Positions 12,454 to 33,447 of a stretch of 64,000 nucleotides of DNA are shown here, piece by piece. The position numbers were made by a program, and so were the translations under genes. Below the pieces are notes generated by a model, which saw nothing but the letters and a program-made list of their open reading frames with translations, was not told where the DNA came from and made no database searches. Every line of letters starts with the position of its first letter. Position 1 is the first letter of the stretch. The stretch spans positions 7,437,778 through 7,501,777 of the forward strand of contig CM026431.1 in assembly GCA_014871385.1 (NCBI GenBank). Direction: 5' to 3'. This stretch comes from Ceratodon purpureus (lineage: Eukaryota > Streptophyta > Bryopsida > Pseudoditrichales > Ditrichaceae).

Positions 12454-13128
12454 TCAAACGGGAACTTCCTTCGCCACCTCCGATACAGACTGCAGACTTG
12501 GACCTATCACAGAACTATCACAAATCCATCTTTCGCCATTTCGTTTCCATAGAGAAATCATGCGCAGAGTAGGGCACTGCATCGAAGGGTTGTCAACAAC
12601 ATTAAGAACCTGCAGCCCCGAATACGCTTCCTGGCGGTACGTGTCCCTCCAGAAATCGACTCTGAGAAACGTGACTGGGTCGGGTGGGGAGGGCTGCGCA
12701 AAACACAACGTGACGCTGTTGCCGTCCGGGGAGAACCCCACCTGACTCAGTCGATGGAAGGTTGTGGACTCACTCGGAGGAATATGAGGTGTCATGATTC
12801 CTCCAGAAGGTGCTTCCTGAAATCCTTGGCCAGGTACCCAGACGAAAAGCATGATGCACCTCATCTTCTTTGGAGCGTCATTGGAATGAAAAAATTGATC
12901 ATCATAGAGCACACTGCAGGTAAACACCTTCAAAAGCCACGTCTTAAAATTCTGAGACCAATCCTCAGCGGACTGATAGAGTGAAAACTCAATCTTGGCC
13001 TGCGCGGAGGGCTTGCGAAACACTATATCCCCGATCTGCGGATCCATCATGGAGCTGGTGTCTAACATAATTCGCGATCTAAGGCCTAGGCTAAAGCAAA
13101 TCGGATTCATTGCGAGGTCTATTGGCAT
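12454..13128 (-). CDS. Unknown 224-residue protein
   Basis: Minus-strand frame with ATG at 13128 (MPIDLAMNPICFSLGLRSRI) and stop at 12454. The content is protein-like: mixed hydrophobic and polar segments such as KIEFSLYQSAEDWSQNFKTW, MRCIMLFVWVPGQGFQE and DPVTFLRVDFWRDTYR, with even composition and no low complexity. Alternating beta-like strands suggest a folded domain, but I do not recognise a family. Two exact TGTCGGATCCGACA palindromes lie upstream at 13672 and 14166, each in a shared ~80-bp module. It may be an orphan of the surrounding transposon-rich region. Confidence 0.45.
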   Translation of the reverse strand: MPIDLAMNPICFSLGLRSRIMLDTSSMMDPQIGDIVFRKPSAQAKIEFSLYQSAEDWSQNFKTWLLKVFTCSVLYDDQFFHSNDAPKKMRCIMLFVWVPGQGFQEAPSGGIMTPHIPPSESTTFHRLSQVGFSPDGNSVTLCFAQPSPPDPVTFLRVDFWRDTYRQEAYSGLQVLNVVDNPSMQCPTLRMISLWKRNGERWICDSSVIGPSLQSVSEVAKEVPV

Positions 13129-13671
13129 GAGGTGGAAATGACCCAGCGTTCTACAATAACCTCATATATAGAGATCAGCCCACAGGCAGTATGAGTGAGC
13201 CGCCGGCAATTACGATACTGCTGTAATGGTTTAGGGTGAAAAGGTGCGGTGAATCATCGTCCGAGGAATACGGCAGTGTTAAGGCTGTATTAAGGTGAGT
13301 AAACTGAAATTTATGAAACCAAGGTCATTATGATGGCGCACATGTCAGTAACCTCCAACAGATTGCTTCACTATCGATTACCATGGGATTACCAATAAAA
13401 CAACTTCTAGGCGTTAAAGTCCTAGATTCCTGTTTAGGGCTAAAGACCTGCACCTAGGTTTGAGGCATCAGATCAATGCTTTGGCTGCGGTTATTACAGT
13501 GTTATCGGATACCTGCAGAGTTAAGTCATCAAGACCGCCCACTGTTCTCAACAATCATTACTATTTAGTACTGTCGTCAGTGGCAAAATCCCAACTCGCT
13601 GTCCATCAAATACCTATGCAACGAGGGCCGACCGAGGCCACCCACGACATTCGTTACGGGCAAAAACCCAC

Positions 13672-13685
13672 TGTCGGATCCGACA
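13672..13685. promoter_or_regulatory. Exact palindrome TGTCGGATCCGACA
   Basis: Perfect 14-bp palindrome, extended context AAACCCACTGTCGGATCCGA with CAATC following. It lies 544 bp upstream of the minus-strand gene starting at 13128. Confidence 0.7.
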
Positions 13686-14165
13686 ATCGCTTTCGGAAGG
13701 AGGTCGACATCGGGGTACTGCGGTTTGACGGTCGGAGCTGGAGTCCATTAGAAACTCGGGGGCCTGCTAAAAGTAGCCCCCCGGGCTTGCTCTTACTGCC
13801 CCCTCTTACTGTGGAGCGCGCTTGAAGTAACATGGGTGCCAGTTCGATGAATTAGAGAACCATTGAACGTGGGAAGATGCTTGATGACTGAGAATTTGTT
13901 TAGGGTGAACATGAGATCAATGCCGTGGCTACGGTTATATTCGATAATAAATGCGGAGTAACCGGCCACCTGCATCGTACCATCATCTAAACGGCTCTGT
14001 GCGCTCAACAATTATATTTTTTAACCACTAGAAGATGAATATTGGTGGACGAGAAATACCTCATCTCTCATGAGTGGCAATAACCAGAGGAGGGGTCCGT
14101 CAGAAAACTATCCGACGAGGGTCGCCTGGCGCCACCCGCGACATTGCTGAGTGGCCAAAACCCAC

Positions 14166-14179
14166 TGTCGGATCCGACA
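14166..14179. promoter_or_regulatory. Exact palindrome TGTCGGATCCGACA
   Basis: Second perfect copy in the same ~80-bp module type as 13672. It sits about 0.5 kb beyond the 3' end of the MULE gene and about 1 kb upstream of the gene at 13128. Confidence 0.7.
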
Positions 14180-14716
14180 ATCACTTTCGGGAGGAGGTCG
14201 AAAGCGGGGTACTGCGGCCTAGCCCTAAGAGCCGGAGTGGCAATGAAACCCGACAGCCGGGTTGGAGTGGCACCCCGGCTGGCTCACACCCGGCCCATTA
14301 TTAATGTACAGTGGGGTTATCTATCGCGGCTGCCGGTTCCATGATTGAGACACCCCATTCAGAGTGGGACGTACCTAGATGAATGATATTTCGCTACATG
14401 AGTGATGATTGTCTGACTGTCCCGGCAGCCATGTAAACCGAGACATTTGCGTAAGTGCAATATGAGTGAGAAGGCATATTTCACACGGAATATAGATGTA
14501 TTTAAGAAGCTGTAATGAATGTCATACATGGATGCATGCATCAACGGTCGCGCATCTGAGATTTGCGGAAAATGAGTAGTGCCTTCTCCCTTATTCTAGA
14601 ACGTAGATAGTATAACGAAGTCGTCAAGGTAGTCGACCCTAAAGTTGGAGCGAAGCCGGTTCATGATTCGCATCCACGGGAGTTGGGCTAGGAGGTTGAA
14701 GTGGCAACAACGATCC

Positions 14717-15019
14717 TTAGAATGTTACTAGCTCAAGAAGGCCGCTCTCGAGGATCGTCTTCACTTCGTTAAAGCTGAGAGTTGGAGCATGGATGTAAGA
14801 GTCCCGATGCATTTCAAGGTTGCATATCGCGTTGTAGATGTAGTAAAGATGCTTGCAAGGGACCCAGGGAGGACGTTTCCCAAGGGACTTCACGGACATC
14901 TCCTTGAAGTTGGGGCAGGTGCATCCGGGCTCGGGGCCTACTGTGATCTTGTACAAGTTTGACTCGGAAACAGTCTCGGAGACAAGGCTGATTATGCAAC
15001 CAAACCTAGGTGTTGGTAT
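14717..15019 (-). CDS. SWIM zinc-finger segment, probable MULE 3' exon
   Basis: The minus-strand peptide FGCIISLVSETVSESNLYKI, TVGPEPGCTCPNFKEMSVKS, PPWVPCKHLYYIYNAI carries the SWIM pattern C-x-C-x(n)-C-x-H (CTC ... CKH). SWIM fingers close many Mutator-like transposases, and this one follows the MULE gene directly. A likely acceptor is the 'cacctag' just before 'gtttggttgcata'. The donor within the end of the preceding exon (15065-16144) is undecided because the obvious choices leave a phase conflict. It ends with a stop at 14717. The motif is clear; the splice connection is inferred. Confidence 0.6.
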   Translation of the reverse strand: MPTPRFGCIISLVSETVSESNLYKITVGPEPGCTCPNFKEMSVKSLGKRPPWVPCKHLYYIYNAICNLEMHRDSYIHAPTLSFNEVKTILESGLLELVTF

Positions 15020-15064
15020 CATTGTCACGGATTGGATATGAACCGTAAGTAGAAGCGACGACGC

Positions 15065-18000
15065 CTAATTGTTCTCGTGCTCGGTTCTAGGTACCCGGTT
15101 GCAGCGACGAATCTTGAAACCTCCACGCACAGTAGGATAAACTCCAGGAGCATCGGGTACAACCAAGTGCGAGAGTTCAAACCGTGGCCGCTGTGGAATG
15201 CTGCCGTCGCCGTCATGGAAAACTCGTTGAGAGGGTAGGTCCTGACGTTGAGGTAGTCTAAAACCTGCAGCCTCTAGGTCCAAAATCTCTCGTTTTGTCA
15301 GGCGAGTTCCACGCTTCACGGGCCAGATAAGCGGAGGGGGCGCCATGCTTGAGACCCAATTCCGTTTCGTGCCCATGACGCATCTCTGAATGTCGTCGTT
15401 ACAGAAGCAGAACTGCATCCATTTCTGACGATCCTTCCTGACTTCTGTAAAGGTGCCCCAGTAGCATGGCACAACTGTGGTCTTCCCTCCGCGTACGAGC
15501 CTGGCCTTGCACTTCTTGTTTGTCTTTGCCTGCTGTGCGAAACATGCCTTTGCACAGCCCTTCGGCAGCCTGACAAGATGCCACTTACTGTCGTCCATGT
15601 CCGTCTCCTCTACTGCAGTTACGTGTGGACGAGTCGTATTCTCGTCGGGGCTTCGGACGGGCGAAGAGGCTGCGTCCACAGGTACCGGTCCAGCTTCGAC
15701 CCGAGCACGCGTCTTCCTAGTGGCCACCCGTGGTTGTGAGAAGTTTACTTTGTCGGGTCTGTGAGAATCGTATTCGGATCCAATTGGTTGATCGAGCTTC
15801 CGCTTCGTTGAGCCAAAGACCTCTTCGCCTTCTCTGTGGGGCTGACGGGAGAGCATCTGTGGAGCGACGTCGAAGTGTTCCGTGGCATCAGCAATACGTT
15901 TGGGAATGCCCGACTTCTGAGCCCGCCGTAAACGGAGCTCGGCTTTGCTCGGTCCTTTACCTGGGTTTTCTCCTCTGAGGTAGGCGCTATAGTTCGTGCA
16001 CTGCATGAAGCCCCGGACATAGTCGTCGACTGTGGCCGTGTACAGGCTTATCCCACGGTTGCCTGACATCTGAAGCCAGATATTATGGACAGTCTCTGAG
16101 AGGTTGCACGACGGCATCTCGTCCTTCTCCTCGTCTGTGAGGTTCTGCATTCAAAGAGAACTCCATGAATTTAGCAAGCTCTACGTTCAGTGGCAGCAAG
16201 GGAATCGAATAGAATGACAAGTTTAGCGGAAGAGGACTCACTAATTGCATGTAACCGCCCCACTGCCGGTACCGATAGTGCCAAAAGACGAGCCACTGCT
16301 CCAGATGTTCGAGTCCAGCAGGTGTCGAGGCCGCGGATGAAATCCACCAAGAACGGATGGCATGGTAACGAATGTCGGCATCCTCCCATGTCTTTGCATC
16401 TCGATACTGCCTGCACAAAGCGTAATGTTGCCTTTGGAGATCGTGACCTCGAATGTGAGCCTCCGTATACTTCTTCAATGAACTTGCCCAGTGGAATTGG
16501 CAGGTACGCTCACGGTCGGGCATTGGATCGTCCGCGTTTCCGTTTCCATATATTACTCGAACAGCGTTCCAATTGGCCTGTGCGCTGTCCGCCATGAAGC
16601 CTTTAAAATTGACATTATTCACCTTGTGCTTTGCCATTACCCCGTTCAGACCCCGCCAGAGCAAACTCTGCGCCCGAGCGTCCTCCGACTGCATATCGCA
16701 TACGGCAACTGTCATAACACGGCAGTATTGGGAGTCATACACATGACATGCCATTGTTGACCAATCCTTCGTTCGCCTGACGTGATCAAACATGATCCAC
16801 GCATCTTCCAAGTCTCCGCCAGGCTGCATCCGCTTCACGAGATCCACCCCTGACCCGGGGCCCCTCTCCGACATCTTGAAGACGAAGACCTTCTCGCCCT
16901 CCGCCCCCTGTCCCGGAAATTTGTTCTCGTGTATAAACTCCCATTTGCTGCAACCTCGCAGCGCGGCTATCCCGTCCATTACTCCCTTGTTGCCGACGGA
17001 TCTGAAGGTCGTGACGTCGTTCTTCAGACCTGGCCTGCTAAGAGGATAATAGAGCCTAAACGCCTGATCGAGCTCCTCATCCGAAAGATATTTACGCACT
17101 TCGCCGGGTTGGGCAAGGAGGAGGTCACTCAAGAAGTCCTTGCTAGCTTCCAATGCAATAGAAGAGGTTTTGCCCTCTGGATTCTGACCGACATGCGACT
17201 CGACGAGGTTGAGGATCTTCTGTTTGCTTAACCTGCAGTCAGCGTATCCTACGGGATGGTCGTGCGTGCCAATATGGATGCACGCACGGGTCATGTCAGC
17301 CCCCCCTAGGACGTAGTATATTCTAGCAGGGCATTGGGCGAGGCATTGCGGAGGAGTCTTGCATATCTTACACACGAGCGTAGACTTTGCAGGGGGATCA
17401 CAACTTACCTGGAAGGGGGTCAGCGACACTCCATCCCACTCAGCCTCGTTGACCTCGCTCAGACGGTTCTCCCGTCGTTTGCGAAAGTCGCAATTGTCAT
17501 TGCAGCATCTCAGATGCCCTGCACAAACGGAGTATCGAAACGTAAGCCCAGAGTCGTTGGAAATATTGGACGTCATCGTCTTACACCACGGATGTCCGTC
17601 GTACTTCTTGTCCATTCCTGCCATTGATTTTGCCGTCGATGGAGTCGCGGGGGGCGCGGGAGGAAGCTCAAAAAGCACATCGCCATTGAATTTGCCCGGA
17701 AGGAAGGGTACCCGCTCTGTCCTCAACGTACTGAAGTTCAGCCTGGACAACGCATTCTTGGCGCCGGATCGTGAAGCTAGGCGTTTGAGACAAGAGACGA
17801 CACTCGGGCTACCTAAGGATGACTTCTGCGTCGGTATGGGGTGCTCTTGCGGAGTTCTAAACAAATCGTCCGATTCCCTGAGCACATGGATCTCTTCTAC
17901 CACTCGACCTAACTTCGCGGCCTCAGTACCAGGACCTGCATCCACAGTTGAAGTCATTGAGCGCCCGGGTGTAAGTATCTCAGTCGATGCTGCCCATCGG

Positions 18001-18257
18001 TCTGGAGTTAGTCCCCTAGCAACATACTTTCTGGCCTCCAGAAGCCACTCTCTCCCTTCAGTAGTCCTACTGGGCATCTGATAAACCGTGTGAACCAAAT
18101 TCCCGCCGTCATCGACAACCTCCTCCTCTAGATGGATGCTCTCCAGCACAAGGTTGTATCTCACGCTTAGAAGACCAGCGCTAACGGATCCGACTCCCTC
18201 GGCATTACAAGGTACATGGAGAGGAACTTCGTGCCCCTCAGCTCGAATTTGCGCCAT
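15065..18257 (-). CDS. MULE-type transposase with GCM-like zinc region
   Basis: Two exons on the minus strand, 18257-16242 (672 codons) and 16144-15065, join in phase through a GT-AG intron (donor gtgagt, acceptor tgaatgcag), giving about 1031 residues. A Cys-rich block at about residues 224-262 (WCKTMTSN, VCAGHLRCCNDNCDFRKR) resembles the GCM-type zinc domain known from WRKY-GCM1 relatives in Mutator-like transposases. The DDE core shows IMFDHVRRTKDWSTMACHV (D491) and FKGFMADSAQANWNAVR (D557), followed by CQFHWASSLKKYTEAH. The third acidic residue was not fixed. The second exon adds a basic linker and a Cys-containing segment (CFCNDDIQRCVMG). Transposition enzyme acting in the nucleus on its own terminal repeats, which I did not find. 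The frame is intact, so the element may be active or recently so. Confidence 0.75.
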
Positions 18258-18299
18258 GGTCGCGAGAAATCAGGATTAAACTATGGAGACGCGACGAAT

Positions 18300-18681
18300 G
18301 GTAAGTCCCATATACAGACTGCGCTTAGAGCGTGGTGTTGAAGGAACTACAATCAGCGGGATTCCGACCGCATCATTACCAAATTACGGTTGAACAAAAT
18401 TGGTTAGGGACTTAAGAAGGAGGACTATTTTAAAAATTAGAGGGATTTGTGATATTTAATTATGCAGCGCTTTTTACTAGGAGCCGTCAAAGAGGATGTC
18501 ATAAATGCAGGTCGTGATGTTTGCACATAGTGCAATTTTACCACATCCAGTAATTGGCATTCACTCGTCTCATTCATCTATCCGAGTGGAGTAATGTCCT
18601 CACTTCTCTCGTTCCATACCTTCGGGCTCGGACCAGAATGAGCGGAGCCGTCGACAGGGTTGACAGGTCTCACCGTCAACA
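18300..18681. other. Divergent intergenic region
   Basis: 380 bp separate the minus-strand MULE start from the plus-strand eight-exon gene. It is AT-rich, with no convincing TATA box or repeat, and may hold promoters for both. Confidence 0.35.
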
Positions 18682-21600
18682 ATGCCTAAGTCACGCTGCA
18701 TGGGGGAGTTGAGCTCACCCAAGCAGGCTACACCTGCGAAAGGGAAGAGGACGACGAAGAAGAAGGGGTTGATTTTGACAGATAGGAAGCGCAGCAATAG
18801 TAAGCAAAGTAATAGTAAGGTCAGTAAGGGAACCCGATCCGTTACGGCAATTCTTGGGGACCCTCGTTGTGATGTAGGGGGATGTCCGAGCTCGAACACA
18901 AGGGAGTCTGGCACCGAAGTAAGCAGCAGCCATCGCTCGGAAGGACATGTGGCGATTGACGATTCGACCGGGGTGGTGCATGACCTCGGCGTTGATTTGG
19001 TGAATGAGAGACCTCATTCAGATGTAAGCTTCCCTGCATGACTTCTTGGTACGTTCTTTTGAAGTGGTTCTTGGCACAGTTGAGATTGAGGATTGGAGGT
19101 ACTCTATTTACATGATTGTATGGACAGCTTCTTTTCATGATAGCTTAGTGGTACTCGATAGCGACGGCCTACAGTGATGTGACTGAGACCCTTCGAAAGT
19201 ACCCACGATCATGTAATGGTAAGCGCGAAACGCGGCTTGTGGTGATGGGATGTTTAAGGTTTTAAAGAATTATGGGTTCAATTAAAATCATCATTGTTTG
19301 GTGGGTTTTAGTACGCGGTTTTGGTTGAAGCCATCAGTGAGGGTTGGTGGCAAGGACAATAGAGCCGCGGCTAGGTTTGGGGATGAGAGCCGCCGGATCG
19401 CTGAGGTGTGCTTATGAAGCTATTGCTGGCTGGCTGTTTCGGAGCATAAAGGGCGAGGGGGCGCTCGTGAGCTATCCACAGACACGGGGTTTGGGTGAGA
19501 AGGAAGAGGGAGGAGAGCCTTCGAGTGTGATAAGAGAAACATGTTTGTATTGTTCGTGGGTTCTGTCAAGCCTGAGATTTAAATTGTTGTTAGCTTTATA
19601 GCATGTGAGGTTATGGAAGATTAGGACAGTGCTCACGGAGGACAGAGTGTGCAACGCTTGTTGGAGGGAATTGGTGATCGACTGCTGCATTGTTTTTGTT
19701 GGTTTCAAGGTGTCAAAGCTCCGTTGAGCAGCTTTTCGAGAAGGCTTCAAGTCGCATGCACAAGTAATGGAGGTAACCGAAATGGTAGCGTCGCGGATAT
19801 AGGGAGAAATAGATGAGTTAGGGTTGAACATCATTTAGGGTTTTTGGCATGTTGTTTCGGGAGAGGATGTTTTTAGGGTTCCTTGCATGTTATTTATGGG
19901 CGTCTTATGATGTACCCGCATCTCTGTGCAGGGAACGATCAAGAACCTTGCTGATGTGGTTGTCGAGAACGCGGCCACAGTCAACGCCGTGTTGGAAGAC
20001 ATACAGAAGGGATCGATTCGGGACGAGTATATGGACAGCTCACATCCGCCGACCGTCGCGGTTGGTGGTCAAGTTGGCTCCGACGTCTTCATGGAGGACT
20101 TTGTGGATGGGGACGATCACGCGGAATCGGATAACCCACGTGAGGGTTTGAATCCGACCGAGGAGGAAGAGCCCAAAGGACCCCACGACAAGATCGATGC
20201 CGACGCGGTTGTTGCATCAGGCGAATGTGAGGCCGAGGCTGCAACAGGCGAGGGTGCTGAAGCTCTGATGAGCATGTCGGCCGAAGTTGGAACGGGGGAG
20301 GGTGCAGCTGCGGTCCAGTTGCAACCTGCGGGGCGAGTTGGGGTTAACGAAGCACGAAGGCAGATTCGATCGGAAATGCAGCTGGATCCCTATTCGGCAC
20401 TTTTAAGAATGAGGCGTAAACCAGACAAGTTGTCATTGATAAAGATTCCTCTATGTCGATTGCTGCCATGTGATTTCGTTCGACCCGCGATGCTCAGTGA
20501 CGTTCAGAAATTGCAGACCGAGTTCTCCAATGGGATAAGGCCCGGCTCAGGGGCATTCTACGTTGCGGCAACGTCGCATATGGGCGAGGAGACACTTGTG
20601 ACGGAAGAGATGAAGTCTTCCTGGTGTTCAGTGTGGCATATCTTGAACAGCATGTTCGAGGCGGAGCTATCAAAACACGAGGAAACTCGTGATCTTAGTG
20701 GGAAGATGTTCTACGTCTTTGATGGTAATCATCGGACAAGGGCGTGGCGCGGGTTTATCGATATGGAGTACCCAGATGACTACGACTGGGCATATGCAAA
20801 TGGAAGACCGGATTGCATACTGTTGGAGGTGAAGGACAGTCGCGAAGCGCTAGTGACAGCTATGCACGCGATCAACAAGTAAGACTTCCAATTTTCAGCT
20901 TGTTCCATTTTTATGCAGTCCAGGGTTTTAACTTCCTTAATTGTCCTAATGGAACTAACATCTCTGCCTATGCAGGGCCAACGAGGAAGCTTTCATCAAA
21001 GAGAGACTGCCTCACACACTGCACAAGATTCAAACCTATGGAGGCATGTCCGCTGAGGATTTGGAAAAGAGTGGTATTTTGCCCCCAGATCTCATGGCCC
21101 GAACGAAGGCGGCTCCCAAGAGGTCGTGGCATACCATGCCGCACGAAGTCTTTGTGTCCTTTCTTCACGCGGTAAGTAACTCAGAATTTCTGAATTCCGA
21201 AGATGATGATTGGTTCATTGAGGTACAGAAACAAATATTGACATGTCAATTTACTCAGGGGACACTGGCCCGAGTCGCTGAGGAGGCAGTGCAGCTCTGG
21301 ATTACAGAGCACCCGGACGAAGACACCGGGGCTGAGATGAAGAATGCTGTGGAGAAAGCAGTCAAAGAAGCGAAGGATAAGTTGCAAAGCAAGTTCCAGA
21401 AGGAGCAGTCGGTGGCAAACCCGGCGCACGGAAAGGCGTTTCATGCTGAGGTATGTCCCCGAATTTGGGCAAGGGTCACGTAAAACTTAGAGAACAAAAG
21501 AGCATTGTCGGATCCGATATTGGTAATTCTGTTCAAGTAATATCGTGGTAACGTGTGTTCCTTAAATATTATTGTGGAAAATCTGTGTTGTTCAGTGAGG

Positions 21601-24600
21601 TACTTTTACAATTTTGGGAAAGGGTCTCGTAAGACAGACAGGTCAAAAGAGCATTGTCGGATCCGACAATGATAATTTTTAATCTGTAATGTTGCGGTAC
21701 TTTGTGTCCCTGAAATTTTATTCTCGAAATTCTCTAATGTTCAGTAAGCTTTTTTTGTAAATTTGGGCAAGGGTCACGTAAAACTTAGAGAACAAAAGAG
21801 CATTGTCGGATCCGATATTGGTAATTCTGTTCAAGTAATATCGCGGGACTGCGTGTCACTCAAATTTCATTCTCGAAATTCTCTGCTGTTCGGAGAGCTG
21901 TTGTTTTAAATTTGGGCAAGGGTCTCGGAAATCCGAGAGGTCAGAAATGCATTGTCGGATCCGACAGTCGTAATTTGGTTCAAGTAATTTTGCGGTACTC
22001 TTGGTCCAGGAGATTATATTGTCGAAATTCTCTGCTGTTCGGAGAGCTGTTGTTTTAAATTTGGGCAAGGGTCTCGGAAATCCGAGAGGTCAGAAATGCA
22101 TTGTCGGATCCGACAGTCGTAATTTGGTTCAAGTAATTTTGCGGTACTGTTGGTCCAGGAGATTTCATTCTCGAAATTCTCTGATGTTCGGATAGATATT
22201 TTTTTAAATCTGGGCAAGGGTCTCGGAAATCCGAGAGGTCAGAAATGCATTGTCGGATCCGACAGTCGTAATTTGGTTCAAGTAATTTTGCGGTACTGTT
22301 GGTCCAGGAGATTTCATTCTCGAAATTCTCTGATGTTCGGATAGATATTTTTTTAAATGTGGGCAAGGGTCTCGGAAATCCGAGAGGTCAGAAATGCATT
22401 GTCGGATCCGACAGTCGTAATTTGGTTCAAGTAATTTTGCGGTACTGTTGGTCCAGGAGATTATATTGTCGAAATTCTCTGCTGTTCGGATAGATATATT
22501 TTTTAAATGTGGGCAAGGGTCTCGGAAATCCGAGAGGTCAGAAATGCATTGTCGGATCCGACAGTCGCAATTTGGTTCAAGTAATTTCGAGGTACCGTGT
22601 TAAATTGTATGGTTATATGTCCAATATCACCCAATTATTGGACAAATGAGCTTAAATTCATGATACAGGCGTTAAAAACTAACTCTACATGCTAGAATTC
22701 GTGAAAATAGTGCAAGTCCTGTGATATTTGAACTACCACGAATCGTATTCTAGGATCCGACAATGGTTTTCGGAGAACTAAAAGTGCAGGGGTCTTCAAA
22801 AAGTTTGATCTTCAAAATGCTCTGTAGGATCCGACAGCGGTGTTTTCGGTTTTCAAATGTTGAGGGGATGTCGTTTTTCTCCGGATGCATGTTCTGTAAC
22901 TTTAATAATCGGTTCCAAACTCTTGAGATTTTTGCGAGGGGTCTTCAAAAAGTTTGATCTTCAAAATGCTCTGTAGGATCCGACAGCGGTTTTTTCGGTT
23001 TTCAAATGTTGAGGGGATGTCGTTTTTCCCCGAATGCATGTTCTGTAACTTTAATAATCGGTGCCAATCTCTTGAGATTTTTGCGAGGGGTCTTCAAAAA
23101 GTTTGATCTTCAAAATGCTCTGTAGGATCCGACAGCGGTTTTTTCGGTTTTCAAATGTTGAGGGGATGTCGTTTTTCCCGTGATGCATGTTCTGTAACTT
23201 TAATAATCGGTGCCAAACTCTTGAGATTTTTGCGAGGGGTCTTCAAAAAGTTTGATCTTCAAAATGCTCTGTAGGATCCGACAGCGGTTTTTTCGGTTTT
23301 CAAATGTTGAGCCTTGAGGGAATGTCGTTTTTCTCCGGATGCATGTTCTGTAATTTTAATAATCGGTGCCAAACTCTTGAGATTTTTGCGAGGGGTCTTC
23401 AAAAAGTTTGATCTTCAAAATGCTCTGTAGGATCCGACAGCGGTTTTTTCGGTTTTCAAATGTTGAGGGGATGTCGTTTTTCTCCGGATGCATGTTCTGT
23501 AACTTTAATAATCGGTGCCAAACTCTTGAGATTTTTGCGAGGGGTCTTCAAAAAGTTTGATCTTCAAAATGCTCTGTAGGATCCGACAGCGGTTTTTTCG
23601 GTTTTCAAATGTTGAGGGGATGTCGTTTTTCTCCGGATGCATGTTCTGTAACTTTAATAATCGGTGCCAATCTCTTGAGATTTTTGCGAGGGGTCTTCAA
23701 AAAGTTTGATCTTCAAAATGCTTTGTAGGATCCGACAGCGGTTTTTTCGGTTTTCAAATGTTGAGGGGATGTCGTTTTTCCTGTGATGCATGTTCTGTAA
23801 CTTTAATAATCGGTGCCAAACTCTTGAGATTTTTGCGAGGGGTCTTCAAAAAGTTTGATCTTCAAAATGCTCTGTAGGATCCGACAGCGGTTTTTTTCGG
23901 TTTTCAAATGTTGAGCCTTGAGGGAATGTCGTTTTTCTCCGGATGCATGTTCTGTAACTTTAATAATCGGTGCCAAACTCTTGAGATTTTTGCGAGGGGT
24001 CTTCAAAAAGTTTGATCTTCAAAATGCTTTGTAGGATCCGACAGCGGTTTTTTCGGTTTTCAAATGTTGAGGGGATGTCGGATTCTTCTTGACGCATGCC
24101 GTGTAACTTTGAAATTTGGTGACTTGATTTGTAGATTAAAAACCACTACGACAAACATCCGACGAAGGTGGAGATGAGTTTGGACAAATTGCTTATGGTT
24201 GCCACTACTGAAGCACTACCCAAAGCGAAGGCAAAATGGCTGCGAATGTGGAACGGGTCAGAGAGTTCTCGAAAGACGGTAAAGTTCCCTGCGAGTCCGT
24301 GCTCGGAGAATGTGCTCGGCCCCTGGCTTTCAAGAGCTGCCTTCTGGGCTAATGTAAGAATCTCCTGCTTAGCTTCGTAAATGTCCACCTTCATCACTTC
24401 GTTTTATATGGGAGATTCTACTAATATCTCTGTCTAAATCTCTTTCTTTGGGCTTATGGAATCTACAGATTGAGGAGGCCGCGGAAGCTGAGTGCTCAAC
24501 TTGGCTTGAAACAATTGAAAAGGAAGAAGAGGCGTCTGAATCCGGCCCCAAGATAAGGCCCAAACGAGTCTCCATGGAGACTTACATGGAGAAGTGGCGA

Positions 24601-26669
24601 GTGCTCCTTTGGGAGAAGGCGTACGGGGCATTCTTTACAGGTGCCAATGCTTACACAAGATCTCTTCCCTTCGCGTCGCAAGCCGGAACTGACATGGCTA
24701 TGAAGAGGCTGGTCTATAGGTACTTTAAGCGGGAGCTCATCCTAGCTGGAGTGGTAGACGCGTACCCAGCAGCCTGGGAGAGCTGGAAGGAGACCAACAA
24801 CTCGGAGTATATGTTTACAGTGAACCAAAGAAAGGTATACAACTTGCAGCACCTCAATGAGGGATGCTGGTACCTAGAGTGCCCAAAGACTATGGTCACT
24901 GAGGAAGAAAAGGCAATCAAGGAACAGCACACGAAGAAGAAGGATGGCGAAGAGGAGGTGAGTGAGTTCGTCGACGACATCCTCCCCCCAAATTTAGACA
25001 GTCTACCCAACTCGGATGCGCATGCTGTGTCCGCGGAGACGGGGGCTGCAGATGCAAGCGCGCGCAAACGAAAGAGAGGGGGTCAGCCGAAGACGACGTC
25101 AAGGGAGACCAGTAAGGAGCCACCGCAGAACAAGGAGCCATCGCAGAGGAAGAGGACGGCGAAGAAGCCAGGGAATCAGAAGGCTGAGACCACAGCACCC
25201 GAGAGGGTTGGCCTCTCTCCAAGCATCGAGCACGCCGAGAAGCCAGTGGTCGCCATAGCTGCGCATATAGAGGGCTCGCAGCAGCTGATCAAGAACGAAT
25301 CTGTAGCGGTATGGGCTGAGGAGGGAATGATCACTTCGTTCAAGGGGATGCCAGAGGGCTTCCATGCAGTATTTGACTGGATCAAGGGCATTACGAATAA
25401 GCGGCCAAGATACAAGAATGGCAAACTTGTTCGTGGGGGATATGCCGATCTCGTCATCGTGGATGTGCCGGAGAAGTTGAGCGTTCCAGGTGTCTCACTG
25501 CGAACAGATGAGATTCCAGATTGGAACAATCGAGACGACACTTTCCTTGCAGGAGTTTTCGGCGTCGCTGGACATATTTTGCATGACAACGGCGCTCTAA
25601 TCGTAATTCACAGCGCTGACGCCGGAGCAGTAGAGAAGGAAATGGAGGAGTGGTTGAAATGGTTCCCATTTAAGATTCACAAGTCCTGGTTAGGATACAA
25701 TCGCCTGCGGCTCAGTTCTTCGAAGAAGAGCGGATCCACGACAAATTGTTTTCGGGTCCACCTTCTTACCCATTCTACTCATTCGGAGTTCGAGTTTCGG
25801 ACGGTACCGCCAGAGTTTTGTAGGCACGGAATCGACATCGCCGAGGACGATGTCATCCAGAATTGGACAACGATGGCAACCCAGGCCATGAGGAATCGCG
25901 TACCCTGGCGCGGTCCGAGGGAGAAGGATCAGCTCTTCATGGAGAGCATAATTCGCGCCACGACTGATGAAGGGGACGTGGTCGTGGACGTTACCGCCGC
26001 CACAGGTAGGTCTTAGGGCCGAATTGTTATCAAATTCCTTTGCCTTAGAAGAAGTACTTGCTGGTACTTACTATTCAGTGGATATGGATTGTAGGAGCAT
26101 CAATCAAAGCCTGCCGAGATACTGGGCGCCATATCGTTGCATTAGAGGCAGACAAAGACATCTTCAACGAGGTACTCAAGAAGTTGAATCCTCCAGCACC
26201 ATCTAATCAAGCATTAGTACAGCCTGCCACAGCAGAGAACACCTCCACCGAAGAGACCACCACAGCGGACGCGGAGCCTCCTATCTCCACGAACTCATAC
26301 ATTGCCCGAAAGAGATTGAAGAAACTCGCGCTTGAGTAAGTGAGTATGGTCTGATTAATTCCTTCGTATCCTCTCATAATCTCACTATTGCTCAAGTTGA
26401 CTGAAAGTCTCTAATTGCAATCTATTCGCAGCAATCCGAATGTGCAACCCCATTCCGGCATACTCATGGAGTGTAGTCGGAAGATTATTCCGTCGCCAGT
26501 GATGCATCGAATTCCTGTTTACGCGGAGAACCAAGCGCAGGTGTTGAGCACACTGGACTCACCACCATCTCCAATAGCGAGGACCAAACTATTCGATGGA
26601 CGAGCTCAAAGGTTCCTTGATATTGAGGCAGAAGTAGAGCATACTTGCATCTCTGACCAGTCGTGCTAG
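18682..26669 (+). CDS. ParB-like + degenerate beta-class DNA methyltransferase protein
   Basis: Eight exons join in phase with GT-AG junctions: 18682-19023, 19932-20878, 20976-21171, 21259-21450, 24135-24353, 24469-26005, 26095-26335, 26432-26669, giving 1303 residues with no internal stop. Exon 1 is Lys/Ser-rich (KGKRTTKKKG). Residues 378-385 read DGNHRTRA within MFYVFDGNHRTRAW, matching the G-x-x-R-x-R-A signature of ParB/sulfiredoxin-fold domains. Basic patches lie near 830 (RKRKRG) and 861 (RKRTAKK). Then come ADLVIVDVPEK (DVPE at 964, in place of DPPY) and a late AdoMet-like loop VVVDVTAATGASIKACRDTGRHIVALEAD (1139-1145 in place of DPFxGxG). Catalytic block before AdoMet block is the beta-class N6/N4 methyltransferase order. 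Both key motifs are altered, so activity is doubtful. Likely nuclear. Intron 4 carries the palindrome arrays. Possibly domesticated from or carried by a mobile element. Confidence 0.6.
21456..22610 (+). repeat. Intronic array A: eight 149-bp units
   Basis: Units contain 'ttgggcaagggtctcg', CTCGGAAATCCGAG (a small inverted repeat), 'aggtcagaaatgcat', the palindrome, 'gtaatttggttcaagtaat', 'gcggtact' and 'cgaaattctctg.tgttcgg'. Palindrome starts are 21506, 21655, 21804, 21953, 22102, 22251, 22400 and 22550, a spacing of 149 bp (last 150). The first and third units end the palindrome as GATA instead of GACA. The later units are nearly identical, implying recent expansion. The array begins within a few bases of the exon-4 donor at 21451. 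Confidence 0.9.
22740..24085 (+). repeat. Intronic array B: nine 149-bp units of different sequence
   Basis: Units contain 'gcgaggggtcttcaaaaagt', 'ttgatcttcaaaatgct', TGTAGGATCCGACAGCGG, 'ttttttcggttttcaaatg', 'gaggggatgtcgttttt' and 'gcatgttctgtaacttt'. Site starts are 22823, 22972, 23121, 23270, 23426, 23575, 23724, 23873 and 24030: 149 bp apart except twice, where a small 'gccttgag' insertion adds 7-8 bp. A diverged leading site is at 22749. The unit sequence is unrelated to array A apart from the site itself. It ends about 50 bp before exon 5. Confidence 0.9.
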
Positions 26670-27055
26670 GCTTGGGAAAGAACTTTATGGAATGTATTTT
26701 ATTTCTTACTTGACTCGTTTATAAAGACATGTGAGTCTTGTCGGCAAAATATGTGCATTTGAATACCTATATTCCCAACTATCACCTAATAGCGTCCCTT
26801 CATATCTGCCATTATGATGGGTCGCACCTTTCTCATGCAACTCTTGAATATAAACCTCTTCCCTTCGAGTACCACTTTTCGTGGGCATTTTTGTATCTAA
26901 AAGGTATAACCGTTGCTGAAAAGGCATTATGAGTGATATGGAAGGAAAATCAACTTTGATTGTCAACATTTGAGAAGTTACAGTAATGTTGTCGTAATTT
27001 TGAAACTCGTAATCTACAGTCAAAGTTCAATCAAATATCGCTTTTATTTTATATT
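26670..27055. other. AT-rich intergenic stretch
   Basis: No gene seen. Base composition drops sharply in G+C compared with the preceding gene and stays low through the next gene and its 3' flank. Confidence 0.4.
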
Positions 27056-28087
27056 ATGGAACTTCAGAGATTTAGAGGCGTTTTATCATTGTTAAATCTC
27101 TTAATTTTATTTCGCTACGAACAAGTACATTCTTTCGATGAGGAAACTCCACAGAATGTATTGTCGCCAGTTGAAATTACAAATAATTTAAACAGGAAGG
27201 TATGGCTAGATTGCTTTGAAAAGGTGTATGATCATGGTGTGCCAAAAAAGCAACACGTAGTAAATGATCAAATCAAAGCTCATGCAAATGTCGAAGTTGG
27301 CCGCGGTCTTCTCGATTTTGAAGATAATTTGTTTTGTGATTTTGAATACAAAATCCGCGAATGGAACTGTGCCTTAAAATATGAGATTGATTTCATGTGC
27401 ATCTGGGAGCATCCTAATGCTCGTCTTACGCGGCACAAGGATGCAAATTTCAACGATGATAATTGCCCTATCTGTGAACAGGGTCCTAGCCCTGATTTAT
27501 ATCTGTGTCGATGGAATATTGAACGAGATGGTCTGTATGTTTCTCAGTTCCATCCTTTTAGCGGTAGACATCAGTACAAGCTTTTTAAGCAATGGAAGGA
27601 GGACGAGGACCACCACGAATTTCTGAAGGAGTATAGAGTGTCTATTTTCAATAATCTCGATGATGAATTATTGCTTACATTTGGAGTTATGGATGCCCCA
27701 ATGAATACTGTGAAAATTCCAGGACGACTTCTAGCACACATTTCCGAACGATTTTTTTACATATCCTTAAATCCACGCACCGACGAGCGTTTACTCAGTT
27801 CGCCTTGGATATGCAAATTTAAAGACCTGGGGAGTATGGCATATCGTAGAGATGTCAAAATATGGAAACCTCCTCTAGTGAACCACGTTCCAATGCCTAT
27901 CGACTGTATAGATTGCGCATGGAAAGCAGATAATGAAGGAATTTGGCTGGATCGAGTTGGATGTGGACAAACGGGATCAATTTGGGAAAAACGATACGAC
28001 TGGGTTCCAATACGGAAGCGGACAAGAGAACCTGACGGTGATAATCAACCAGCAAAGCGTCCAAAACAGGAGCACTTGGAACTGTAA
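27056..28087 (+). CDS. Orphan AT-rich 343-residue protein
   Basis: One uninterrupted frame with no introns runs from the ATG at 27056 to a stop at 28087. The N-terminus (MELQRFRGVLSLLNLLILFR) is hydrophobic and could be a weak signal or anchor. The body is rich in Trp, Phe, Tyr and Asp (VWLDCFEKVYDHGVPKK; DFMCIWEHPNARLTRHKD; SPWICKFKDLGSMAYRRD). There are paired cysteines (CPICEQG, CIDCAWK) and a basic C-terminus (RKRTREP, AKRPKQEH) like a nuclear signal. The codons are much more A/T-rich than those of neighbouring genes. Being intronless and compositionally distinct, it could come from horizontal transfer, a virus-like or fungal source, or a retrocopy. I do not recognise the family. Confidence 0.55.
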   Translation: MELQRFRGVLSLLNLLILFRYEQVHSFDEETPQNVLSPVEITNNLNRKVWLDCFEKVYDHGVPKKQHVVNDQIKAHANVEVGRGLLDFEDNLFCDFEYKIREWNCALKYEIDFMCIWEHPNARLTRHKDANFNDDNCPICEQGPSPDLYLCRWNIERDGLYVSQFHPFSGRHQYKLFKQWKEDEDHHEFLKEYRVSIFNNLDDELLLTFGVMDAPMNTVKIPGRLLAHISERFFYISLNPRTDERLLSSPWICKFKDLGSMAYRRDVKIWKPPLVNHVPMPIDCIDCAWKADNEGIWLDRVGCGQTGSIWEKRYDWVPIRKRTREPDGDNQPAKRPKQEHLEL

Positions 28088-28209
28088 TATTTTCTGAGAA
28101 TGAGAGGCATCACTACTATACTTATTTAACAAAAAAAAGAGAAAAGGATATTCAATTCATATCATTGTGATTCTTTCCATTTTATAGTCGTATTCGAATC
28201 ACTATAAAT

Positions 28210-28794
28210 TTGAGTTTGTAATTATGAATGCCAATTATTAAGACATAAGAGCCAATATCTGCTCTCCATCATCTTATCCCTTAAACTGACTGACATTCCC
28301 ATAAGCCAAATTAACTGATGTAGATCCCTAAGGCATCTCCCCATGGCCTCCCCTTCGGCAGCAGCCTTGGTACTTACGCTATTCGGTTTTAAAAAAAACT
28401 TGATTACGTTCGATCCCGCATAGACTGACGATAATGCTCACATCCCGCACCTGCTACCTGGGAAGTAGAGGCCTCTGCAACTGAGACCCCGGCAGCTCAT
28501 ACCCGGAATGCTCATACCCGAAAATTGCGATCGGCACATTCCAAATCTGAACCCCGGCGGCATTCTGCAATGCAAGAACTTGGCTTTCGGATCCGAGAAT
28601 GGATTTCTCGCTACTTCAAATTCCGCCGGCCTCGTTCTTGGCCTCCACGACCTTGTGCCCACCCAACACTTTTGCGCCCTGTCATCCCATCCCACTTTCT
28701 TCTGACCTAGCCGCCGCGGCCCGCGTGCCCTTACGGTATACTATAAATAGAAATCGTTTCCCTTATTTTGTCACCTTCTCATCGATCCTTCTCG
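28210..28794 (+). promoter_or_regulatory. Promoter module copy 1 with TATAAAT
   Basis: Segments 28210-28335 and 28440-28794 match 30930-31030 and 31040-31356 almost base for base. The module holds CCCGGCAGCTCATACCCGG repeats, CTTTCGGATCCGAGAATGG (palindromic TCGGATCCGA core at about 28590), a C-rich stretch, TATAAAT at 28742-28748 and a 5' leader ending in CTCG before the donor GTGAGT at 28795. Copy 1 has about 100 bp extra at 28335-28440. Confidence 0.7.
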
Positions 28795-29573
28795 GTGAGT
28801 CTCATTCTCTTCTCATTTCTGTTATTTAGCGTTGTTACCGATTTGCTATTTTCTCCTCTCCCATTTTTGTGGCCTTTGCTCATTTGCTAGTGTGTGTGCT
28901 TCTTTGTTGCGGCTATGGTGGTGGGGGGGCGGAGGCTCGAGAGGGCCGATGAAGCCCCTCCCGGCCTGGCCTTTGCTCATTTGCTAGTGTGTGTGCTTCT
29001 ATGTTGCGGCTATGGTGGTGGGGGGCCGAGGCTGGATAGGGCTGATGAAGCCCCTCCTGGCCTGGCCTTTGCTCATTTGCTAGTGTGTGTGCTTCTATGT
29101 TGCGGCTATGGTGGTGGGGGGCCGAGGCTGGATAGGGCTGATGAAGCCCCTCCTGGCCTGGCCTTTGCTCATTTGCTAGTGTGTGTGCTTCTATGTTGCG
29201 GCTATGGTGGTGGGGGGCCGAGGCTGGATAGGGCTGATAAAGCCCCTCCTGGCTTGGCCTTTGCTCATTTGCTAGTGTGTGTGCTTCTATGTTGCGGCTA
29301 TGGTGGTGCGGGGCGGAGGTTGAGAGGGCCGATGAAGCCCCTCCCGGCCTGGCCTTTGCTCATTTTTAAGAGTGTGTGCTTCAATGTTGCGGCTATGGTG
29401 GTGGGGGCCGAGGCTAGAGAGGGCCGATGAAGCCTTTCCCGGCCTCGCCTTTGATCATTTGCTAGTGTGTGAGCTTGTATATTGCGGCTATGGTAGTGCG
29501 GGGCCGAGGCTGTTCTTTGCTGGTTGAAGAATGCTATAAAATCTAATACGGAATTCATTGGTTTTTTAATTAG
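28795..29573 (+). repeat. 5'-leader intron filled with ~96-bp tandem repeats
   Basis: Seven copies of a ~94-96 bp unit (landmarks 'gctcatttgctagtgtgtgt', 'ttgcggctatggtggt', 'gggccgaggct', 'gatgaagcccctcc') lie between the donor at 28795 and the acceptor at 29572-29573. Because 96 is divisible by three, open frames of up to 178 codons run through it. These are judged artefacts. Confidence 0.75.
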
Positions 29574-29592
29574 GTGTTCTCGAAAGCAAATA

Positions 29593-30257
29593 ATGGGGAG
29601 CCGTGATCGAGTACCGCCATCAGCTGAAACCGAGGTACTAGATTAATAGTACACTAAACCTAAAATGTCTCTGATTTACAAACATGACTCCTGCCTCGTA
29701 ATGTATTGCTCACCTCTCATTTGAAAGTGAAATCTAACCTTTTTATCATCTCTGCTTTCCTAGGTGTATTCCGATGCATCTGAGAGGTCTATCTCCAACT
29801 CCTTTCCAGTGATCAATGTTTCCGATCTCTCGGATTCATATGATCAGCAGTTCTGTACCTGTGCTGGAGCAAGCCCTGTGAGTCTTGGTGGTGAGCCGTT
29901 CGAGGTTCATTCTCCACAGTACATGCCTACTTCTCCAGTTTACATGCCTACCTCTCCAGTTTACATGCCTACATCCCCAGTGTATGAGCCTACCTGTCCA
30001 GTTTACACGCCTACATCCCAGTGTATGAGCCTAGCTCCCCAGGTTTCATGCCCATTTCTCCTCCACAGGATTCACCGCCAATGTCTCCTCCCTCTCCTTC
30101 ATCGCCTATAAGAGTGAGGAGGCCAGCCCATGTAGTCTTTGCCCTTCCGGCAATACTACCGTGCCCTGTCCAACAGACCAGGCGATATTGGAGGAGGCGC
30201 CGCCACTGGAATTGTAGACAGTCTCGGGAATATTATAGTCGTGCATCACGTAGATAG
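29593..30257 (+). pseudogene. Small protein with RNA-polymerase-II-CTD-like heptads, one frameshift
   Basis: Exon 29593-29634 (MGSRDRVPPSAETE) splices in phase to 29764 onward ([20 protein letters not shown]). From about 29922 the protein repeats a heptad: YMPTSPV three times, then [14 protein letters not shown]-like, YEPSSPG and FMPISPP. This closely echoes the YSPTSPS heptad of the RPB1 C-terminal domain. One C is missing near 30017 (ACATCCCAGTG versus ACATCCCCAGTG in the preceding repeat), shifting the frame. The other frame resumes the heptads and ends in an Arg-rich tail (RRRRHWNCRQSREYYSRASR) at 30257. Corrected length is about 179 residues. It lies behind promoter copy 1. Function unknown; the heptads suggest a substrate for proline-directed kinases or CTD-binding proteins. 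Confidence 0.55.
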
Positions 30258-30499
30258 AATGTAAATGTAAACGTAGAGAGAATGTGAATGTACTTCTTTC
30301 CTAAGTAACATTTTCAATAGGATCTCATTCCCATATAAATTGCATAGCCATGTGTGTTTATTTCATATCCATGAAGTCCATCCTCTGCAAGCAAACATCA
30401 TCTACACAATCACATTGCAACACTCCAAATTGACACCCCATTCGCATCTCCAATTTGCACCCCCTTGGACATCAGCCTTGGCTCCAGCATTTAATGGTG

Positions 30500-30830
30500 T
30501 ATTAAATAACCGTTATGTCGGATCCCGCTGAGACCCGGGGATCCCATATCCCGGCAGATGATATCCGGGCAACTAATACGCAGGATGAAGAAACCCCGGC
30601 CCCTGCAACTTGCTGCGACACCCAGAGAATATCCGGAATGCACATACCCCGGCAGCGTCTACGCGTGCAGCCCATACCCTCGCCGTTGGGTTCCTGGTAG
30701 CTGATATCCGGGCAGAACATAACCTGGCCGCTTCGACCCTGAGTTTTAGAATGCAAACCTCGGCGGCAGCCTGCAAAGCACAAAAACGGCTGTCGGATCC
30801 GACAATCATGTTCTTTGTTCTTCGAGATTC
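30500..30830 (+). promoter_or_regulatory. Diverged third promoter-like module
   Basis: CCCGG-rich segment with 'catacccggcagc', 'gatatccgggca' and 'aatgcaaacctcggcggcag', similar in style and order to the modules at 28.44 and 31.04 kb but strongly diverged. It contains an exact palindrome at 30791. No TATA box or gene follows before the second module. Confidence 0.4.
30791..30804. promoter_or_regulatory. Exact palindrome TGTCGGATCCGACA
   Basis: Context AAAACGGCTGTCGGATCCGA followed by CAATC, matching the flanks of the sites at 33495, 13672 and 14166. It sits inside the diverged promoter-like module. Confidence 0.7.
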
Positions 30831-30929
30831 AGAGGTCCCGGTCCCGGACGCGGAAAAAACACTCTCAGATCCTTATAGGCGTCTCTTAATGGCCCCCCCT
30901 TGGACAGCGGCATGAAGAAACTTGAGTTC

Positions 30930-31356
30930 GTAAATATGAAAGCCAACTATTAAGACATTAGAGCCAGTATCTGCTCTCCATCATCTTATCCTTTAAACTA
31001 ACTGACATTCCCACAAGCCAAATTAACTGTTGGTCACTGCAACTCGGACCCCGGCAGCTCATACCCGGGATGGTCATACCCGAAAATTGCGACCGGCACA
31101 TTCCAAATCTGAACCCCGGCGGCATTCTGCAAAGCAAGAACTTGGCTTTCGGATCCGAGAATGGATTCCTCGTTACTACAAATTCCGCCGGCCTCGTTCT
31201 TGGCCTCCACGACCTTGTGCCCACCCAACACTTTTGCGCCCTGTCATCCCATCCCACTGTCTTCTGACCTAGCCGCCGCGGCCCGCGTGCCCTGACGGTA
31301 TACTATAAATAGAACTCTTTTCCCTTATTTTGTCACCTTCTCATCGATCCTTCTCG
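30930..31356 (+). promoter_or_regulatory. Promoter module copy 2 with TATAAAT
   Basis: Near-identical to copy 1. TATAAAT lies at 31304-31310, CTTTCGGATCCGAGAATGG at about 31146-31164, and the leader ends at the donor GTGAGT at 31357. The high identity over ~400 bp, including leader and donor, indicates a recent duplication or conserved mobile module. Confidence 0.7.
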
Positions 31357-32518
31357 GTGAGTCTCATTCTCTCCTCTCCCATTTGTGTCACCTTTGATCA
31401 TTTGCTAGTGTGTGTGCTTCTTTTTTGCGGCTATGGTGGTAGGGGGCCGAGGCTCAAGAGGGCCGATGAAGCCCCTCCCGGCCTCGCCTCTACTCATTTG
31501 CAAGTGTGTGTGATTCAATGTTGCGGCTATGGTGGTGGGGGCCGAGGCTCGAGAGGGCCGATGAAGCCCCTCCCGGCCTCGCCTCTGCTCATTTGCTAGT
31601 GTGTGTGATTCAATGATGCGGCTATGGTGGTGGGGGCCGAGGCTCGAGAGGGCCGATGAAGCCCCTCCCGGCCTCGCCTCTGCTCATTTGCTAGTGTGTG
31701 TGATTCAATGTTGCGGCTATGGTGGTGGGGGCCGAGGCTCGAGAGGGCCGATGAAGCCCCTCCCGGCCTCGCCTCTGCTCATTTGCTAGTGTGTGTGATT
31801 CAATGATGGGGCTATGGTGGTGGGGGCCGAGGCTCGAGAGGGCCGATGAAGCCCCTCCCGGCCTCGCCTCTGCTCATTTGCTAGTGTGTGTGATTCAATG
31901 ATGCGGCTATGGTGGTGGGGGCCGAGGCTCGAGAGGGCCGATGAAGCCCCTCCCGGCCTCGCCTCTACTCATTTGCAAGTGTGTGTTATTCAATGTTGCG
32001 GCTATGGTGGTGGGGGGCCGAGGCTCGAGAGGGCCGATGAAGCCCCTCCCGGCCTCGACTTTGCTCATTTGCTAGTGTGTGTGCTTCTTTGTTGCGGCTA
32101 TGGTGGTGGGGGGGCCGAGGCTCGAGAGGGCCGATGAAGCCCCTCCCGGCCTGGCCTTTGCGCATTTGCTAGTGTGTGTGATTCAATGTTGCGGCTATGG
32201 TGGTGGGGGCCGAGGCTCGAGAGGGCCGATGAAGCCCCTCCCGGCCTCGCCTCTACTCAATTGCTAGTGTGTGTGCTTCAATGTTGCGGCTATGGTGGTC
32301 GGGGGCCGAGGCTCGAGAGGGCCGATGGAGCCCCTCCCGGCCTCGCCTCTGCTCATTTGCTAGTGTGTGTGATTCAATGTTGCGGCTATGGTGGTGGGGG
32401 GCCGAGGCTCGACAGGGCCGATGAAGCATCTCCCGGCCTTGCGTTTGTAAATATGCTTGAAACTTTTGTTTGATTGAATTTGTGTGTGCCTACTCATCGT
32501 GCTCTTTTGATTTTGCAG
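31357..32518 (+). repeat. Second repeat-filled leader intron, ~11 units
   Basis: Same ~94-96 bp unit as the 28.8-29.5 kb intron, about eleven copies, mostly with 'gattcaatgttgcggctatg' variants. The intron ends at acceptor 'ttgattttgcag' (32517-32518), immediately before an ATG at 32519. Confidence 0.75.
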
Positions 32519-33440: not shown

Positions 33441-33447
33441 TACAACC

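Follow-up and report, generated by a model that had tools for sequence, protein, structure and literature searches.

A giant transposon of the moss Ceratodon purpureus, 25,967 bp long and lying within a 64,000-nt stretch of its genome (hereafter the window), encodes a predicted fusion of a probable ParB-like region with a DNA methyltransferase-like domain and carries arrays of a short motif in an intron of the fusion gene. The window was compared with the 362.5-Mb genome by sequence searches. Our best reading, to which we give a probability of roughly 0.6, is that the transposon encodes in this gene an accessory protein that binds DNA and recognises its own element, working like VANC of the VANDAL elements. 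What points to self-recognition is the combination of a selected transposon gene, with a methyltransferase-like and a probable ParB-like domain, and a regular, mostly palindromic non-coding motif that changes from one family of elements to the next. We refer to the window element and its close copies as family 1, and to two sets of relatives as families 2 and 3; a family-3 copy has about 40% identity in the ParB region.

The giant transposon and its relatives

The fusion gene is part of a transposon with terminal inverted repeats and 10-bp target duplications, whose giant copies measure 25-64 kb. The element and its parts outside the fusion gene are as follows (ORF, open reading frame):

10860..36826, no strand: whole mobile element, 25,967 bp, with ends shared at other loci
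10850..10859 (+): left 10-bp target-site duplication GGTTTTCCCC, identical to 36827-36836
36827..36836 (+): right 10-bp target-site duplication GGTTTTCCCC, identical to 10850-10859
10872..10927 (+): left terminal inverted repeat, aligned part (window self-comparison)
36760..36814 (-): right terminal inverted repeat, aligned part (window self-comparison)
15068..18260 (-): two transposase-like ORFs, at 16086-18260 and 15068-16150, that read away from the fusion gene
27056..28087 (+): third element gene, a 343-aa ORF that three family-2 copies match at 71-85% aa identity, the frame being broken in one
29764..30108 (+): ORF with YMPTSPV heptads; of the three family-2 right arms, one matches an 85-aa part of it at 89% identity

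The terminal inverted repeats are 89% identical over 56 bp. The right end has 40 genomic matches, the window's own included; all 20 loci fetched from these share the same terminal bases, with one or two substitutions in a few, and their 45-base flanks appear unrelated to one another. At the left end the match begins at 10855-10860 in 10 of 14 loci, with no match in the inspected region of the other four. Ten other copies have both ends, nine with perfect 10-bp duplications of their own and one with a single mismatch, and the duplication of the window element is likewise perfect. Lengths among copies with both ends range from 25,206 to 64,480 bp. Four family-1 elements, C2:11486428-11550907 and three others of 55.6-58.0 kb, are more than twice as long as that of the window and have perfect 10-bp duplications. 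The first-pass annotation had taken this for a nuclear gene of a plant, surrounded by MULE and CACTA genes, with coordinates that span the gene and leave out its unit (10860-36826); this misses the main point, which is that the gene is itself part of a many-copy giant transposon.

MULE target duplications measure 9-11 bp, and the 10-bp duplications of the window element and the ten other copies (one mismatched) fall within that range. The transposase-like ORFs have no Pfam transposase match, and a recognisable MULE transposase was not found; that these ORFs may be the transposase is read from their motifs, together with the terminal inverted repeats and target-site duplications. ORF 16086-18260 has at least 62 genomic matches, and among the matches listed 55 of 62 have a divergent ParB exon within 8 kb, the other seven having none. 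Genomic copy counts are lower bounds throughout. Exon 6 of the fusion gene has at least 84 matches (29 at 70-100% identity and 55 at 50-53%) and exon 2, the ParB exon, at least 127, of which 52 lie on contig C6 (110.5 Mb), which fits the large sex chromosome of this species. The presence of copies on many contigs and the spliced gene rule out contamination.

Family 2 shares sequence with the window element beyond the fusion gene. The first 23 bases of its left end, seen in two copies only, are those of the family-1 right end; paired ends with a duplication were not found for a family-2 element, and a right-end-like sequence in one copy showed no duplication by eye. The 27056-28087 ORF (71-85% aa identity, up to 91% in DNA) resembles family 2 more than the genes next to it do (56% and about 70% aa identity), which suggests exchange between the families at this ORF. 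We take the YMPTSPV heptads of the 29764-30108 ORF to resemble the C-terminal repeat of RNA polymerase II. Elsewhere, three pairs of matching ends enclose about 17-18.5 kb in which no ParB exon is listed (C12:1112077-1128980, C10:5065133-5081953 and C9:14811332-14829859); they are perhaps non-autonomous relatives.

A selected gene joining a methyltransferase-like and a probable ParB-like domain

The fusion gene comprises the following parts; exons 1 to 5 were placed by spliced translation and comparison with family 2.

18682..19023 (+): exon 1
19932..20878 (+): exon 2, which holds the ParB-like region (about 20427-20878)
20721..20744 (+): DGNHRTRA box, aa 378-385, from the translation
20976..21171 (+): exon 3
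21259..21450 (+): exon 4
24135..24353 (+): exon 5
24469..26005 (+): exon 6, with a conserved region in its middle and the larger part of the methyltransferase-like domain, from the translation and the family-2 comparison
25462..25473 (+): DVPE, aa 964-967, at the motif IV position in place of DPPY, from the translation and relatives
26095..26335 (+): exon 7, which completes the motif I region for S-adenosylmethionine (AdoMet), from the translation and profile matches; predicted 3' end
26432..26669 (+): exon 8, predicted only, from the spliced translation

Spliced in silico, the eight exons (all GT..AG) give 3,912 nt and 1,303 aa with zero internal stops. A family-2 relative (locus L043/L044) keeps exons 1-7 and the six corresponding introns at 56% aa identity. 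By region, identity is 76% in the ParB-like part, 71% in exons 3-4, 69% near motif I and 65% both in exon 5 and at the beginning of exon 6, and it falls to 48% where the methyltransferase domain begins. Synonymous divergence (dS) between the families is saturated in four of six listed pairs and about 3.1 in the remaining two. Exon 6 of 20 family-2 copies, drawn from the 55 matches at 50-53% identity, has a mean non-synonymous divergence (dN) of 0.0150, a dS of 0.0879 and a dN/dS of 0.17, a ratio valid for intact copies, all 20 being stop-free; intact family-2 copies are under purifying selection. Among seven family-1 copies of exon 6 (seven of eight exons were used, L007 being left out), mean dS is 0.0072 and dN 0.0028. 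The gene model is more than chance, since exons and introns recur at 56% identity, dS between the families is saturated in most of the listed pairs, and exon 6 of intact family-2 copies has a dN/dS of 0.17. From these comparisons it is real through exon 7, and the last intron and exon 8 stay a prediction; the family-2 copy compared has broken frames in the last part of the gene and lends no support to the seventh intron and exon 8. Several claims of the first-pass annotation thus hold: the in-phase joining of eight exons without a stop, coding constraint, offered there as one of two alternatives (six shared introns and the dN/dS of intact family-2 copies), and the position of DGNHRTRA at aa 378-385.

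The C-terminal domain is supported as a beta-class DNA-methyltransferase fold by profile matches and by a structure model from family 2. The window domain (the tail of exon 6 plus exon 7) scores 25.9 bits against PF01555 (N6_N4_Mtase), with a cut-off of 26.7, and the full protein 21.6 bits; at E≤1 the 1,303-aa protein matches nothing else in Pfam-A. The family-2 domain reaches 34.1 bits, above the cut-off. PHROG DNA methyltransferases match the window domain at E 5.2e-9, 7.9e-8 and 5.9e-7; exon 6 without exon 7 has no methyltransferase match in PHROGs. The structure model is that of P0007, the database protein KC19_N032100 of C. purpureus, assigned to family 2 by eye, so that the fold match is that of a family-2 protein and not of the window copy. 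The model (predicted local distance difference test score, pLDDT, 66; predicted template modelling score, pTM, 0.69) matches M.BceJIV in Foldseek (E 1.2e-11, probability 1.00), as well as CcrM, M.RsrI and others, and also a bdelloid rotifer N4-cytosine (N4C) methyltransferase (E 4.7e-9). A protein-database search with the full fusion protein returned nothing at E≤0.001. Neither exon 6 nor exon 2 had a sequence match in the PDB at E≤10, and phage tblastn with the methyltransferase part gave none.

Motif IV (DVPE, aa 964-967) precedes motif I (VDVTAATG, aa 1138-1145), the beta-class order. The catalytic motif of this methyltransferase class is (D/N/S)PP(Y/F/W), from which DVPE of the window copy departs. 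The same position reads DIPE in 20 of 20 family-2 exons. Six of seven database relatives cover it, with DLPE or DIPE, and family 3 has QVPD; a further divergent copy beside a family-3 copy (locus L052, about 6084-9708, minus strand) has DLPE and DCTAATG. At motif I the window copy has DVTAATG; that of family 2, DIGAGTG, is close to the usual AdoMet motif. The first-pass annotation was right in naming a DNA methyltransferase domain, as the PHROG matches, the family-2 PF01555 score and the family-2 fold attest, and in its beta-class motif order. Its statement that both catalytic motifs are altered describes the window copy; beyond it, only the DPPY loss is common to the lineages read, because family 2 has the near-usual DIGAGTG. 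The DPPY loss argues for reading rather than writing methyl marks, and the domain probably acts as a DNA reader and not a writer, with which the previously proposed binding rather than modifying role would fit.

The ParB-like region probably belongs to the ParB/Srx (sulfiredoxin) superfamily, judging from its box II. ParB/Srx box II is a GxHR-type signature after a beta strand. The pattern [DE]G[NHE]HR..A has a single match in the six frames of the window, DGNHRTRA; the octamer is identical in family 2, and the box reads DGNHRY in family 3 and EGNHRT in a fern protein (Adiantum nelumboides, E 8.3e-10), so that a GxHR-type signature is conserved in all three families and the fern protein. The predicted order of strands and helices in a poor model of the region agrees with the ParB order. 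At the level of the box, matches below significance were obtained to DUF1015 (E 0.026), which holds SerK, of the same fold, and to the ParB-like phrog_1033 (E 0.07), each with two of six sequences. A PDB search with a profile of the region gave three matches, all unrelated (E 0.27-0.91), and phage tblastn with the ParB part only two (E 6 and 7).

Candidate sites arrayed in intron 4

The fourth intron of the gene holds two tandem arrays of a candidate site, which also occurs singly in both arms of the element:

21462..22595 (+): intron-4 array 1, 149-bp period, TGTCGGATCCGACA, with two of eight sites ending in GATA (tandem-repeat and motif search)
22788..24080 (+): intron-4 array 2, 149-bp period, TGTAGGATCCGACA (tandem-repeat and motif search)
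13672..13685, no strand: TGTCGGATCCGACA site outside the gene (another at 14166-14179; motif search)
30791..30804, no strand: TGTCGGATCCGACA site in the right arm (others at 33495-33508 and 35232-35245; motif search)

With up to three mismatches, TGTCGGATCCGACA has 32 matches in the window against 2.6 expected, 30 of them within the element. The half-sites TGTCGGAT/ATCCGACA occur 41 times in the window: 25 in intron 4 (2,684 bp), 14 in other non-coding DNA of the element (13,751 bp) and two in the 38,033 bp outside it. The exons of the fusion gene (3,912 bp) and its other introns (1,392 bp) have none, nor have the transposase-like ORFs (3,193 bp) or the third element gene near 27 kb (1,035 bp). 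Spacing in intron 4 is exactly 149 bp in 12 of 17 intervals and 150 bp in one, the others being 74, 156, 157 and 199 bp. Genome-wide, TGTCGGATCCGACA has 591 sites and its backwards control none; among the first 50 of the 591 listed, 42 lie between matched family-1 ends, six within 15 kb of a family-2 match and two near neither.

The motif and its array differ between families. In family 2 this intron holds two arrays, in which the half-site lies within TGTCGGATT and its reverse, mostly 74-75 bp apart, so that TGTCGGAT recurs at half the family-1 spacing. Its candidate site is TGTCGGATTCT, and its motif ATGATCTGTCGGATT is found 854 times in the genome against once for the control. A 20-kb family-2 stretch has 23 half-sites, 17 of them in intron 4 and none in exons 1-7. 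The corresponding intron of one family-3 copy holds an array of 151-bp period built on a different motif, CCGACCGCGC, whose 16 sites in the 19.8 kb of that copy all lie inside the intron. The word CCCGACCGCG occurs 5-16 times in all four family-3-type introns, whose boundaries are approximate, and 5-6 times in the three without a long array. CCGAC is common to all three families, which may be chance.

Other repeats accompany these arrays. A second palindrome, CAAGGTACCTTG, lies in intron 4 of family 2 (L043-L048), with 2-4 occurrences per 20-kb stretch. Two 95-96-bp tandem arrays without the palindrome (28870-29512 and 31391-32439) are alike, and a relative of 22 copies is present in a family-2 right arm.

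Outside the element, the window holds a CACTA-type transposase at 39772-42462 (+; Transposase_21, E 3e-60; DUF4218, E 5e-27), a protein kinase gene at 55256-56584 (+; PF07714, E 2e-23) and a 547-bp direct repeat, 95% identical, at 52198-52741 and 57190-57736. Rfam and tRNA scans of the window gave no match.

Proposed self-recognition and comparison with known systems

Under the self-recognition reading, the fusion protein would bind the arrayed candidate sites in its own element, the palindrome serving as a dimer site, and would coat the element as ParB occupies parS or VANC occupies VANDAL. Coating might keep the element open to transcription or help to assemble it for transposition. Motif and protein would change together between families, so that each family recognises itself. 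A bolder form, which we advance tentatively and with the odds somewhat against it, is that land-plant giant transposons turned a bacterial ParB-DNA-methyltransferase pair into a self-recognition system, in which a catalytically dead methyltransferase fold and a ParB-like switch would read family-specific, often palindromic, parS-like arrays, whose spacing (149, about 74.5 and 151 bp) perhaps puts the sites on one face of the helix, with anti-silencing arising independently of VANC.

Several points weigh against self-recognition. The ParB assignment, a further claim of the first-pass annotation, has the conserved DGNHRTRA box in its favour and lacks a significant profile or fold match, so that it is probable and not proven: PF02195 matched neither the full protein nor the domain parts and gave no match in this genome in a genome-wide search, though that search, in which the control was found in 10 of 14 genomes, also missed sulfiredoxin, which plants have, and is possibly insensitive here; and the model of the region has a pLDDT of 45 and no PDB match. 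Among the three other family-3-type introns, TRF finds no array in two and, in the third, a short one of 118-bp period (2.7 copies). We infer that the fusion protein is what recognises the sites, and these could instead be bound by the transposase or a host factor. The anti-silencing role, finally, would be an analogy drawn from an unrelated protein.

TnpA of En/Spm binds repeated sites and brings the ends together for the transposase. A transposition accessory factor of this kind, pairing the ends via repeated sites and with no anti-silencing role, is a possible but less likely explanation: half-sites are also found in both arms (11.0-14.2 kb and 30.5-35.2 kb) and the gene is paired with a transposase-like gene, but the sites are densest mid-element, in intron 4, and not beside the ends.

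It is rather improbable that the protein is an active enzyme methylating (at N4-cytosine or N6-adenine) its own GGATCC/GATC-bearing sites, thereby protecting or marking the element. Its fold is that of DNA N6-adenine (N6A) and N4C methyltransferases, including the bdelloid rotifer N4C enzyme, DIGAGTG is kept in family 2, GGATCC lies inside the palindrome TGTCGGATCCGACA, frequent in the genome, and the authors of PMC12477816 suggest for proteins of this type that they bind the element encoding them and modify it. Yet DPPY has become D[VIL]PE in families 1 and 2, the L052 copy and six database relatives, while family 3 reads QVPD; the window copy also has an altered motif I; and the intron-4 arrays of three family-2 and four family-3-type copies have no GGATCC.

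We equally doubt that the arrays are plain satellite expansions of the intron, unrelated to the protein. This would agree with the other arrays of the same element (28870-29512 and 31391-32439), which lack the motif, and with the further words, such as CAAGGTACCTTG, repeated in family-2 arrays, but the half-site is common to families 1 and 2 despite differing surrounding repeat units, single copies of it also occur in both arms, and the coding sequence examined has none. A domesticated host gene or decaying pseudogene merely near transposons, which would suit the first-pass description and the stops in exon-6 matches (11 of 18 on C6, 6 of 66 elsewhere), is practically excluded by the at least 127 ParB-exon matches, by the dN/dS of intact family-2 copies and, for the window copy, by the exact element boundaries and duplications, which refute it.

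C. purpureus offers a land-plant counterpart of the algal proteins for which a concrete candidate site is at hand; a related family has this site in altered form, and the lineages read have lost the catalytic motif alike. The bind-and-mark proposal made for algae thereby turns into a simple binding experiment, and one gains an independent way of asking whether recognition of their own sequence, as a means against silencing, has evolved in transposons again and again.

By analogy, VANC of the Arabidopsis VANDAL elements is the closest working model. VANC binds motifs in same-orientation tandem arrays, in introns and other non-coding DNA, and these motifs differ between related VANDAL elements (PMC5735166); non-coding regions of VANDAL elements are targets of RNA-directed DNA methylation (PMC10398659). 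Both proteins are transposon-encoded, with a short motif arrayed in non-coding DNA and introns and with motif and array differing between families. The motif itself is different, the best sites here are palindromic, and anti-silencing would be here by analogy. No sequence relation to VANC is seen, as judged from the Pfam-A result (N6_N4_Mtase only) and not from a direct comparison.

The two domains have their own counterparts. PMC12704722 lists N6_N4 methyltransferase as one of the fusion partners that the ParB fold has more frequently in phages than in bacteria, and names sulfiredoxin as the commonest eukaryotic member of that fold. The domain pair of such phage fusions would be the same as ours, whereas here it is encoded by a multi-exon gene of a eukaryotic transposon and the catalytic motif is altered. 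M.BceJIV, CcrM and M.RsrI (PDB) share their fold with the family-2 model, with motif IV before motif I, but DPPY is missing here and identity is 17-23% in the matches listed.

The nearest description is that of Sola1-1_Ec32 from Ectocarpus, a 21.5-kb giant DNA transposon with a 1,104-aa accessory protein that joins a ParB-like and an N4C/N6A methyltransferase domain (PMC12477816); the text consulted mentions no target or catalytic motif for it, and its authors also cite proteins from green and red algae. The likeness, by description only, lies in a two-domain protein (1,303 aa predicted here, the ParB part being only probable) in a giant DNA transposon, and our element shares the Ectocarpus-type arrangement in its methyltransferase-like domain and in the orientation of the gene, opposite the transposase strand. 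It differs in its moss host, 10-bp duplications, DVPE for DPPY and arrays of candidate targets. Among the matches listed from the literature collection searched, none reported such a protein or arrays from a land plant. ParB-methyltransferase transposon proteins are thus a kind already known from algae, on the text consulted of PMC12477816; what is new, as far as seen, is the land-plant host, the changed catalytic motif, the candidate sites and the turnover of their motif.

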